From assembly GCF_001458255.1 (NCBI RefSeq), contig NZ_CYSB01000029.1, positions 175,875 to 239,874 on the forward strand: 64,000 nt of DNA, written 5' to 3'. Shown here piece after piece: positions 39,900 through 41,713 of this stretch. Under the pieces are notes generated by a model. The model saw only the letters and a list, made by a program, of their open reading frames with translations. It was not told where the DNA came from and did no database searches. Both the position numbers and the translations under genes were made by a program. This DNA is from Thalassovita autumnalis. Lineage in GTDB: Bacteria; Pseudomonadota; Alphaproteobacteria; Rhodobacterales; Rhodobacteraceae. Every line of letters starts with the position of its first letter. Positions within the stretch are counted from its first letter, which is position 1.

Positions 39900-40973
39900 T
39901 CAGCCGGCTTTGCGCATCGGCATGGCCCGGCGGGTGTCCACCGCCTGTGCCAGACGGCGCAGCATGAATTCGGTATCCTCCCAACCAAGGCAGCCATCAG
40001 TGATCGACTGGCCGTAGACCAGCTTCTGGCCTTTCACCAGATCCTGACGGCCCTCAACCAGATTGCTTTCGATCATCACACCGGTGATGCGGCGGTCGCC
40101 TGCTTCCATCTGGCCGGCGATGTCTTCCAGCACGGCGGGTTGTTTCAACGGATCCTTGCCGCTGTTGGCATGGCTGGCGTCGATCATCACATGAGGGCGA
40201 ATACCGTCTTGTTCCGCCATCCGGCAGGCCGCATCGACTGAGGTCGCGTCAAAGTTGGTGCCGCCACCGCCGCGCAGAATGATGTGGCAATCCGGATTGC
40301 CATTGGTCGCCGCAATCGCCGCGCGGCCGTTTTTCGCCAGCGCCATGAAATGATGGGGATGTGCCGCCGAACGTACCGCATCAATGGCGATCTGGACGTT
40401 GCCCCGGGTGCCGTTTTTGAAGCCAACCGGGCAGCTGAGGCCCGAAGCCATTTCCCGGTGGATCTGACTTTCAGTGGTGCGCGCACCAATAGCGGCCCAG
40501 CTGACCAGATCGCTGATGTATTGTGGCACGGCGCTGTCCAGGAACTCCGTTCCAACCGGCAGGCCCATCTGGTTCACATCGATCAGCAGCTGGCGCGCCA
40601 CCTCAAGGCCCGCATCGATGCAGAAAGATCCATCCAGACCGGGATCATTGATCAACCCTTTCCAGCCCGAAATGGTGCGCGGTTTCTCAAAGTAGACCCG
40701 CATGACAATCTCCAGATTGTCGCCCAGCTCCTCACGCAGTGGCTGCAGCTTCTTGGCGTAGTCGACCGCCGCTTCGGGATCGTGGATCGAACAGGGGCCG
40801 ACCACAACGATCAGACGATCATCGTGACCATGCAGGATCTTTTGCACCGCCGCCCGGCCGTCCAGCACAGTGCGGATTGATTTGGCGGTGATCGGCAGCT
40901 TGGCCGCCAGTTCATCGGGGGCGCGCATTTCCATCATATCGGCGATGCGCAGGTTTTCGGTTTGGGTGGTCAT
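39900..40973 (-). CDS. aroG: 3-deoxy-7-phosphoheptulonate (DAHP) synthase, class I
   Basis: 357 residues. First step of aromatic amino-acid synthesis: phosphoenolpyruvate plus erythrose 4-phosphate. Class I (AroFGH-type) motifs: VVGPCSIHDPEAA, MRVYFEKPRTISGWKGLINDP, FLDSAVPQYISDLVSWAAIGARTTESQ, FKNGTRGN, MIDASHANSGKDP. Preceded by a 25-codon leader peptide with six consecutive aromatic codons and a terminator hairpin, so expression should respond to charged tRNA-Phe, -Tyr or -Trp. Confidence 0.95.
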   Translation of the reverse strand: MTTQTENLRIADMMEMRAPDELAAKLPITAKSIRTVLDGRAAVQKILHGHDDRLIVVVGPCSIHDPEAAVDYAKKLQPLREELGDNLEIVMRVYFEKPRTISGWKGLINDPGLDGSFCIDAGLEVARQLLIDVNQMGLPVGTEFLDSAVPQYISDLVSWAAIGARTTESQIHREMASGLSCPVGFKNGTRGNVQIAIDAVRSAAHPHHFMALAKNGRAAIAATNGNPDCHIILRGGGGTNFDATSVDAACRMAEQDGIRPHVMIDASHANSGKDPLKQPAVLEDIAGQMEAGDRRITGVMIESNLVEGRQDLVKGQKLVYGQSITDGCLGWEDTEFMLRRLAQAVDTRRAMPMRKAG

Positions 40974-41036
40974 TTTGTGGCGTCCTAGATTTTGTCTGTC
41001 TGGATGCCCCCTTGGTCCTGAACCTTGGGCGGATAC

Positions 41037-41061
41037 AAAAAGACCGCCCGGAGGGGGCGGT
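41037..41061 (-). terminator. Attenuator terminator upstream of aroG
   Basis: On the minus strand: ACCGCC (41061-41056), 7-base loop, GGCGGT (41048-41043), C, then TTTTT (41041-41037). It lies 36 bases past the leader stop and 63 bases before aroG. The leader contains a second GGCGGT (41124-41119) and CGGAGGGG (41118-41111), both able to pair with the terminator 5' arm or loop and so to prevent it forming. Confidence 0.82.
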
Positions 41062-41096
41062 TCGTTTGGTATCTCTGGTGCGTATGTTCTGGTAAT

Positions 41097-41174
41097 TCAG
41101 TACGCGCAGACCCCTCCGACCGCCGGATGGCTCGGATAAAAGTAATACCAAAAAGATGCGGTCTGGTAGGTCAT
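41097..41174 (-). CDS. aroL-leader: Aromatic leader peptide of the aroG attenuator
   Basis: 25 codons from ATG 41174 to TGA 41099-41097. Residues 8-13 are Phe-Trp-Tyr-Tyr-Phe-Tyr (codons 41153-41136), with further Tyr at positions 3 and 25. Six adjacent codons for all three aromatic amino acids, directly before a DAHP synthase and followed by a terminator, is the layout of trp/phe-type leader peptides. If any aromatic aminoacyl-tRNA is scarce, the ribosome stalls there and leaves the antiterminator segment free. The symbol is descriptive only. No strong Shine-Dalgarno is visible. Confidence 0.82.
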   Translation of the reverse strand: MTYQTASFWYYFYPSHPAVGGVCAY

Positions 41175-41199
41175 GTCCAGACGCTAACGGCGATTCGGG

Positions 41200-41228
41200 A
41201 TTCTGTAAAGGCGGAAAAAACGGCGCAA
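41200..41228 (-). promoter_or_regulatory. Putative promoter of the aroG leader transcript
   Basis: Minus strand TTGCGC (41228-41223), 17 bases, CAGAAT (41205-41200). Start near 41193 would leave about 20 bases before the leader ATG. Confidence 0.48.
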
Positions 41229-41298
41229 TTTTAGGGGTTTGGGGATGACACCCAGAAACTGCGCGCTACCTCTGTCTGGAAATGACAGGACCTGCCTG

Positions 41299-41682
41299 AT
41301 GCCAAAGTCACCAGAAACACGCACGCTCTACAATGCGGATTGTCCGATCTGCAACGCTGAGATTGGCCACTACGCGGTATATGCTGAGGCCCGCGCCCTG
41401 CCCCTGGGATTCGAGGATCTGAACAGCGTGGACCTGTCAGGCTGGGGCGTCAGCGCTGAGGACGCGGCCAAGCGTCTGCACGTGTTGCATCAGGGGCAGC
41501 TCTACGTCGGTTTTGACGCTTTCCTGATCCTCTGGGAGCAGCTACCGCGGTACCGGTTTGCAGCGCGCCTGGGCCGCCTGCCCGGGGTCTATCAGCTGGC
41601 CTGCTGGGGCTATGAAAAAATCGCCGCGCCCTGGCTCTACAACGCGCATAAGCGCAGGCAAGCCCGTCAAAGCACGACATAG
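41299..41682 (+). CDS. DUF393 (DCC family) thiol-disulfide-like protein
   Basis: 127 residues from ATG 41299, with AGGA 8 bases upstream. N-terminal YNADCPICNAEIGHY carries the D-C-x2-C (DCC) motif, then a region with LHVLHQGQLYVGFDAFLILWEQLPRYRF typical of the family. Predicted thioredoxin-like fold; function unknown. A shared terminator lies directly after it, tail-to-tail with rplQ. Confidence 0.84.
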   Translation: MPKSPETRTLYNADCPICNAEIGHYAVYAEARALPLGFEDLNSVDLSGWGVSAEDAAKRLHVLHQGQLYVGFDAFLILWEQLPRYRFAARLGRLPGVYQLACWGYEKIAAPWLYNAHKRRQARQSTT

Positions 41683-41713
41683 AAAAACCCCCGCACCATT
41701 TCTGGTACGGGGG
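41683..41713 (-). terminator. Terminator of the alpha ribosomal operon (after rplQ)
   Basis: CCCCCGTACC / GGTGCGGGGG with one internal mismatch and a 6-base loop; minus-strand transcripts then meet TTTTT (41687-41683). 28 bases after the rplQ stop. Confidence 0.85.

Follow-up and report, generated by a model that had tools for sequence, protein, structure and literature searches.

A predicted three-aromatic amino acid attenuator upstream of a class I DAHP synthase gene in Thalassovita autumnalis

Introduction

In a 64,000-nucleotide stretch of the Thalassovita autumnalis genome (contig NZ_CYSB01000029.1, positions 175,875 to 239,874 of the forward strand; hereafter the window), a class I 3-deoxy-D-arabino-heptulosonate 7-phosphate (DAHP) synthase gene, here called aroG, is preceded by a 25-codon open reading frame (ORF) with six consecutive codons for aromatic amino acids and by a hairpin that resembles an intrinsic terminator. 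We consider it highly probable that this leader is a ribosome-mediated transcription attenuator, which would sense Phe, Trp and Tyr jointly and thereby set the level of the DAHP synthase message. The sequence parts, their conservation and the computed folds are shown here, and the regulatory function is a prediction, though a strong one. A preliminary description of the window, made from the letters, had proposed this three-aromatic reading, and the conserved leader ORF and its pairing in relatives lend it support.

Ribosome-mediated attenuation is a classical form of control, known from the trp, phe and ilv leaders, and leaders of the ilv type read several amino acids. In the textbook account, entry into the shikimate pathway is controlled through three Escherichia coli isozymes together with TyrR and TrpR. 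Leader attenuation of a DAHP synthase gene has been described in Corynebacterium glutamicum, where the aroR leader (Phe-Tyr-Phe) controls aroF and a ribosome that stalls for want of Phe causes more transcription (PMC11802643, PMC4046766). The preliminary description had known of no account of this arrangement for roseobacter aroG. This holds in so far as we found no report of a Phe, Trp and Tyr attenuator on a proteobacterial class I aroG, with a prior prediction in the comparative papers of 2001-2010 being possible, but DAHP synthase leader attenuation as such was already known (PMC11802643).

Results

On the minus strand, the elements follow one another as TTTACA, 17 nucleotides (nt), TAGCGT, 6 nt, the leader ORF, the hairpin, C-TTTTT and, after a further 63 bases, the aroG ATG (40973; Table 1). 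Two hallmarks of an attenuator are thus present in the sequence, namely an aromatic-codon ORF directly upstream of the gene and a terminator between the two, and a third, an alternative antiterminator built with the terminator 5' arm and accessible on stalling, is seen in computed folds only. The preliminary description had given the leader ORF (41174-41097, codons 8-13 reading F W Y Y F Y) and the terminator (41061-41037, 63 bases ahead of the aroG ATG) exactly as they stand in the sequence; the second GGCGGT that it had noted is found at 41124-41119, and its 8-base complementarity between CGGAGGGG (41118-41111) and CCCCTCCG (41056-41049) holds base by base. On its two strands, the window contains 845 ATG ORFs of 6-45 codons, of which the leader ORF, with six aromatic residues in seven, is the sole case with more than four, and the runners-up are four ORFs with four aromatic residues in seven. 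Together with the absence of aromatic-rich ORFs upstream of 24 class II genes described below, this census leads us to reject a chance ORF, and conservation in relatives is an even stronger argument against chance than the census. In the interval 40900-41700, three terminator-like sites were observed and 0.8 expected. The leader peptide matches none of the NCBIfam and Pfam models, and a search of 40900-41400 against Rfam returned four matches at E up to 10, none of them an amino-acid leader and none sufficient for family membership, the top one being RNAI with 23.8 bits against a gathering threshold of 47.

To score loci by script, a leader was defined as an ATG ORF with at least four aromatic residues in seven. 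In total 197 loci were counted (117 with a leader, 111 non-redundant, 106 with a recognised terminator); L041, L050 and L177 are included in the count, lack a T-run terminator and may be chance cases. A search of the class matched 18 of 289 genomes, that is the source genome, nine others with full-length matches and eight with short matches of about 30% identity that were excluded, and a search of the phylum matched 220 of 396 genomes, from which 88 loci (28 + 60) were read, chosen non-randomly by rank and spread. The names of the Bradyrhizobium-, Mesorhizobium- and Xanthomonadaceae-type clades were assigned from family numbers and the tree. All 22 Rhodobacteraceae class I aroG loci examined, two of them from named Leisingera strains, have an aromatic-rich leader ORF, and the script recognised a terminator at 21. 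The preliminary description had proposed looking for an FWY-rich ORF upstream of aroG in relatives, and this ORF is kept well beyond Rhodobacterales: the leader occurs at 64 of the 69 alphaproteobacterial loci examined, at all 16 Xanthomonadaceae-type loci and at many from Burkholderiales, a spread that takes in Bradyrhizobium, Mesorhizobium, Devosia, roseobacters and xanthomonads. By the same script, no such leader was found at the Enterobacterales, Vibrionaceae, Chromatiaceae and Methylophilaceae loci examined.

The aromatic character of the core is kept while single residues vary. Codons 8-13 are aromatic in 84-100% of the 19 main-type Rhodobacteraceae leaders, with Phe and Tyr interchanging at codons 10-13 and Trp9 present in 19/19. 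In six clades, each leader has Phe, Trp and Tyr together in its core (18/18, 3/3, 4/4, 14/14, 13/13 and 14/14), but this holds for only 6/10 of the other alphaproteobacterial leaders. Three rhizobial leaders (L154, L158 and L167) have Ser at the usual Trp codon (RFYSYR), three aromatic residues in seven and a retained terminator, and may be natural variants in which Trp sensing was lost. L110 keeps promoter-like letters, the GGCGG leader copy and the terminator, has two aromatic residues (MNAARTLSARFYPRSIAGGIRGA) and is possibly a decaying attenuator. At L103 the contig begins inside the terminator and the leader is cut off. A second, distant type of aroG leader occurs in three Rhodobacteraceae genomes (L098-L100), with an aromatic core such as SFYWFR; L100 has a terminator of the CCGCCGGT..ACCGGCGG kind, L099 a similar one, and the tree separates all three from the main group.

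A covariance model (R1) built from 18 leaders matched 13 of 198 Rhodobacteraceae genomes at E <= 0.01. The nine matches at E < 1e-27 are all directly upstream of aroG and are the model's own input sequences, and therefore add no new confirmation; one weak match (G153) also lies upstream of aroG. Candidate second copies away from aroG (G140, G062 and G138) showed no such leader and terminator on inspection, and R1 revealed no further close copy of the element in these genomes, with filters that lose weak matches.

Pairing was analysed in two alignments of chosen sequences, A1 (18) and A2 (37). Across the 37 sequences, 30 of 294 cells of the terminator stem show two-sided changes, a value reached in 0/500 shuffles, and the number of terminator pairs with such a change, three, is not unusual (172/500 shuffles). 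Five core pairs between GGCGG in the leader and CCGCC in the terminator arm form in 182/185 A2 cells and are kept in 19/19 main-type Rhodobacteraceae leaders. In some lineages other than the main Rhodobacteraceae group, joint changes are seen in the two flanking bases (CT:AG, CC:GG and GA:TC), whereas the Rhodobacteraceae helix extends the other way, GGAGGGG and the surroundings of the stop codon pairing with bases ahead of the terminator. The leader stop codon of this species lies within the upper part of the predicted antiterminator, whose minimum free energy (MFE) of -26.5 kcal/mol corresponds to z -2.13 against 200 interior dinucleotide shuffles, 5/200 being as low. With the core fixed, the MFE is below the interior-shuffle mean in 53/64 leaders. 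The pairs of region 1 with region 2, GCC:GGC and CC:GG, are kept in 16-18 of the 18 A1 rows and, being nearly invariant, give no covariation. Two-sided changes in the antiterminator occur in 10 of 295 A2 cells (1/500 shuffles as high); covariation across clades is modest and only suggestive.

The preliminary description had taken the 8-base-pair (bp) helix between CGGAGGGG and CCCCTCCG as the antiterminator. This helix is real and appears in the folds of this species, but it is largely unshared: among the 19 main-type Rhodobacteraceae leaders, a pairing of this type of at least 7 bp is found only in this species, a near-identical relative and L094. We therefore reject it as a general mechanism (3/19, compared with 19/19 for GGCGG:CCGCC). 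It probably helps in this species, as the folds suggest, and is best seen as a species-level addition to the more widely kept core. The conserved GGAGGG could also serve as an internal Shine-Dalgarno-like pause site, a role that is inseparable from its part in pairing.

The spacing of the leader parts was measured in 74 leaders with a parsed terminator, of which 67, of the alphaproteobacterial and Xanthomonadaceae types, have the exact motif and seven do not. From the last aromatic codon to the start of GGCGG there are 11 nt in 54/67 leaders, and from GGCGG to the stop codon 25 nt in 60/67. A ribosome footprint extends about 13 nt beyond the first A-site base, and a ribosome on the last aromatic codon would therefore just free GGCGG, while one at the stop codon would cover GGAGGGG. 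Folding with such footprints was carried out for 98 of 106 leaders, the other eight lacking GG[CT]GG. With the ribosome stalled on the last aromatic codon, the terminator 5' arm of the nascent RNA is paired (>0.7) in 89/98, and with the ribosome at the stop codon the terminator is formed (>0.7) in 98/98. Pairing of the arm reaches 0.88, compared with 0.63 when the upstream RNA is shuffled, and exceeds the shuffle mean in 103/106 leaders; the associated P-value of 1e-18 is overstated because the sequences are related. In this species, a ribosome on the last aromatic codon lowers the terminator probability of the full-length RNA to 0.01.

The leader is predicted to be leaderless: given usual promoter spacings, the distance of the -35 element from the leader ATG places the transcript start on the A of this ATG or no more than about 2 nt away. 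In 53 of 64 non-redundant alphaproteobacterial leaders, GACA occurs within -36..-29 of the ATG, compared with 0.026 per 8-nt window elsewhere, starting at -34 in 31 and at -33 in 20; for L092, L120 and L121, the script trimmed the leader to a later ATG and shifted the promoter distance out of range. This species and L082-L084 have TTTACA in place of the GACA-type letters, and many relatives have CTAGCGT- or CTATAT-like letters at the -10 position. In Xanthomonadaceae-type leaders, a TGTGTTATCA box is conserved about as far from the ATG, and beta-type leaders are without this promoter geometry. A scan for sigma-70-like sites found none on either strand of 40900-41700 and also misses the leader's own predicted promoter. 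Leaderless starts have precedents in Alphaproteobacteria, since the Sinorhizobium meliloti trp leader RNA is leaderless (PMC10117765) and 192 transcription starts of Bradyrhizobium japonicum map exactly to start codons (PMC4842269).

The aroG product scores 518 bits with TIGR00034 (aroFGH; cut-off 173) and 313 bits with PF00793. As it falls below the cut-off of the NCBI AroG equivalog model (507.7, cut-off 568) yet above that of the AroH subfamily model (499.3, cut-off 463), aroG is a loose name for this gene. Few members of the family have class I aroG, with a match in 18 of 394 Rhodobacteraceae genomes, one of which (G093) is short and weak and was taken as spurious, and it occurs in 5/9 genomes of the genus. 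Each of the 24 genomes queried, 20 Rhodobacteraceae that have class I aroG and four genus-mates that lack it, contains a class II DAHP synthase gene. As an internal control, the 500 nt upstream of the class II genes were inspected, and an aromatic-rich ORF was present in 0/24; control of the class II enzyme by a similar leader is rejected on this ground. All 20 class I aroG Rhodobacteraceae asked thus also hold a class II gene without a leader (L102 in the source genome). The class I enzyme looks like a regulated second isozyme beside class II. No TrpR homologue was found in the genome, and no search was made for TyrR.

In a tree of 137 AroG proteins (quick method, midpoint root, leader labels assigned by script), the alphaproteobacterial and Xanthomonadaceae/Rhodanobacteraceae proteins form one side (Shimodaira-Hasegawa-like approximate likelihood ratio test 98), on which 76/78 have the leader, the exceptions being L103 and L110. 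The gammaproteobacterial xanthomonads are placed among the alphas (L012, L013, L014, L020, L023, L027, L029, L052, L123, L124, L133, L140 and L144-L146, all with the leader), and inner branches are weakly resolved. Leader-bearing Burkholderiales lie on the opposite side, and at least six label changes are forced. The position of leader-bearing xanthomonad AroG among the alphas suggests that gene and attenuator were transferred together between classes.

Upstream of the leader, a small gene on the plus strand (41299-41682, MPKSPETRTLYNADCPICNAEIGHYAVYAEARAL...) diverges from it, and the leader promoter lies in the intergenic region common to both. The product of the small gene looks DUF393-like.

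Table 1. Features of the aroG leader region (window coordinates)
Feature	Coordinates	Strand	Basis
Leader ORF, 25 codons + TGA, MTYQTASFWYYFYPSHPAVGGVCAY	41097..41174	-	sequence, relatives, ORF census
Predicted stalling codons 8-13, Phe-Trp-Tyr-Tyr-Phe-Tyr	41136..41153	-	aromatic fraction 0.84-1.00 per codon, 19 Rhodobacteraceae leaders
Intrinsic-terminator-like hairpin ACCGCCC-CCTCC-GGGCGGT + C-TTTTT	41037..41061 (hairpin 41061-41043)	-	sequence, terminator scan, covariation
Region 1, UCCGAGCC, predicted partner of region 2 (GGC..UCGGA) in the ribosome-free state	41129..41136	-	folds
Region 2, GGCGGTCGGAGGGG, 5' strand of the antiterminator; its GGCGGT recurs in the terminator 3' arm	41111..41124	-	sequence, A2
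Predicted antiterminator hairpin, GGCGGTCG : CG-A-ACCGCC, then GG:CC, UCUG:CAGA, GCGU..ACGC on top	41056..41124	-	MFE
Alternative register of the preliminary description, CGGAGGGG (41118-41111) with CCCCTCCG (41056-41049)	41049..41118	-	folds; not conserved
aroG, class I DAHP synthase gene of the AroFGH type, 357 aa	39900..40973	-	TIGR00034, PF00793
Predicted -35 element TTTACA	41204..41209	-	position shared with relatives' GACA; inferred
Predicted -10 element TAGCGT, 17 nt past -35, 6 nt ahead of leader ATG	41181..41186	-	inferred

Discussion

We propose that the leader works as follows, with promoter and start, translation, stalling, termination and the response to amino acids all being predicted steps. 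RNA polymerase would start within about 2 nt of the leader AUG, with a ribosome close behind. When charged Phe-, Trp- and Tyr-tRNA are plentiful, the ribosome would reach the stop codon inside the antiterminator and cover GGAGGGG and the upper stem, and GGCGG would fold back on region 1. The terminator could then form, and a leader transcript about 138 nt long would be released. A shortage of charged Phe-, Trp- or Tyr-tRNA would instead stall the ribosome on codons 8-13 and leave the GGCGG..GGAGGGG segment exposed; this segment would capture the 5' arm of the terminator ahead of 3' arm synthesis, and transcription would continue into aroG.

Several observations count against this mechanism or narrow its reach. 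At full-length equilibrium, the stalled state favours the terminator (mean 0.71; below 0.5 in 28/98), and the order of synthesis must therefore decide for most loci. Attenuators in general are assumed to depend on the order of synthesis. In this species, too, the terminator is present in the full-length fold while a ribosome occupies codons 8-11. Within Rhodobacteraceae, the core pairs hardly vary and show no covariation. The number of antiterminator pairs with a two-sided change, three, is not unusual (183/500 shuffles as high), and a register slid by +3 outscores the proposed one on covariation (0.073 vs 0.058); these two points are the reason why we regard antiterminator covariation as suggestive only. 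In three of the four Devosia leaders, GGCAG replaces GGCGG, which accounts for the three misses in A2. Pairing with the own leader is barely better than with those of other clades (6.2 vs 6.0 bp; better in 81 and worse in 25, n = 106). Beta-type leaders are unsupported by interior shuffles (mean z -0.18), and many of them are without Trp, all three aromatic residues being present in 12/30 and 3/5. Five of the 69 alphaproteobacterial loci (L154, L158, L167, L110 and L103) fall short of the leader definition. Finally, the aroF leader of C. glutamicum did not respond to Tyr although it includes a Tyr codon (PMC11802643), and thus not every codon present need be sensed.

This last point bears on a reading that we consider possible, if doubtful, in which the attenuator works but only Phe12 and Tyr13 matter, so that it would in practice be a Phe/Tyr sensor to which Trp contributes weakly or not at all. 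When a ribosome occupies codons 8-9, region 1 is accessible and pairs with region 2 in the fold of the full-length RNA, and the terminator persists (-36.3 kcal/mol); it is the last aromatic codon that lies 11 nt ahead of GGCGG in most leaders, Trp is missing from many beta-type leaders, and only Phe was effective in C. glutamicum (PMC11802643). On the other hand, Trp9 is invariant in main-type Rhodobacteraceae leaders and Trp occurs in every leader of six clades, and before the 3' arm is made, the 5' arm is still blocked with a ribosome on codons 8-11 (-28.0 to -28.3 kcal/mol). The best nascent fold in that state contains the 8-bp CGGAGGGG:CCCCTCCG pairing, which raises the question of whether this pairing, and not the GGCGG form, is mainly the working antiterminator of this species. 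Its pairs exist, and with the ribosome on codons 12-13 they are largely present in the best full-length fold (-30.9 kcal/mol), in which the terminator is absent. We nevertheless think this unlikely, as a pairing of at least 7 bp is restricted to three of the 19 main-type Rhodobacteraceae leaders and as the GGCGG form is best when codons 12-13 are occupied and the 3' arm is not yet there (-26.5 kcal/mol vs -24.0 with the 8 bp forced).

A different function might also be imagined for the same parts. By analogy with rnTrpL and peTrpL of S. meliloti, the leader might act mainly in trans through its terminated RNA or its aromatic peptide, with attenuation being secondary. The build is the same as that of the leaderless, dual-function S. 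meliloti trp leader (PMC10117765), but outside the aromatic run the peptide varies by clade and its conserved Gly-rich part is encoded by region 2, and we judge a main role in trans improbable. It is hardly credible that the ORF is unused, that the hairpin simply ends a transcript from further upstream and that the aromatic run arose by chance, given that the ORF stands alone among 845, is kept in several clades and is absent upstream of the 24 class II genes. We retain joint sensing of Phe, Trp and Tyr by attenuation as the preferred reading.

Like the E. coli trpL, pheL and ilv leaders, the element combines regulatory codons, alternative hairpins and an intrinsic terminator; unlike them, it brings together Phe, Trp and Tyr codons on the common entry step and matches no Rfam leader. 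With C. glutamicum aroR-aroF it shares an aromatic-codon leader peptide ahead of a DAHP synthase gene, whereas that leader belongs to an actinobacterium, reads Phe-Tyr-Phe without Trp and was unaffected by Tyr supply (PMC11802643). The S. meliloti trpL leader is likewise alphaproteobacterial and starts at the leader AUG, but it precedes trpE and its leaderless start comes from data, while the one described here is predicted (PMC10117765). The uORFC-13-1 motif, known from 24 sequences of Acholeplasma and environmental DNA, is another predicted upstream ORF and terminator element ahead of a DAHP synthase gene (aroF), but it comes from a different phylum and its U run codes for at least one Phe (PMC8632094). 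For the Vibrio aroA(I-alpha)-tyrA operons, upstream attenuators have been listed from a database (PMC1173090).

On a wider scale, the odds seem to us about even that class I DAHP synthase of Alphaproteobacteria and Xanthomonadaceae is controlled mainly by a leaderless, mobile attenuator responding to any of Phe, Trp and Tyr. In this reading, a single ORF of 25 codons would sense all three products at the entry step, and the switch would move with the gene between classes and add an inducible second DAHP synthase beside the switch-less class II enzyme. In T. autumnalis, a single RNA element would put one isozyme under the control of all three aromatic products, in a genome in which no TrpR homologue was found, and this element would lend itself to use as a reporter, since a distinct outcome is predicted for each of the amino acids.

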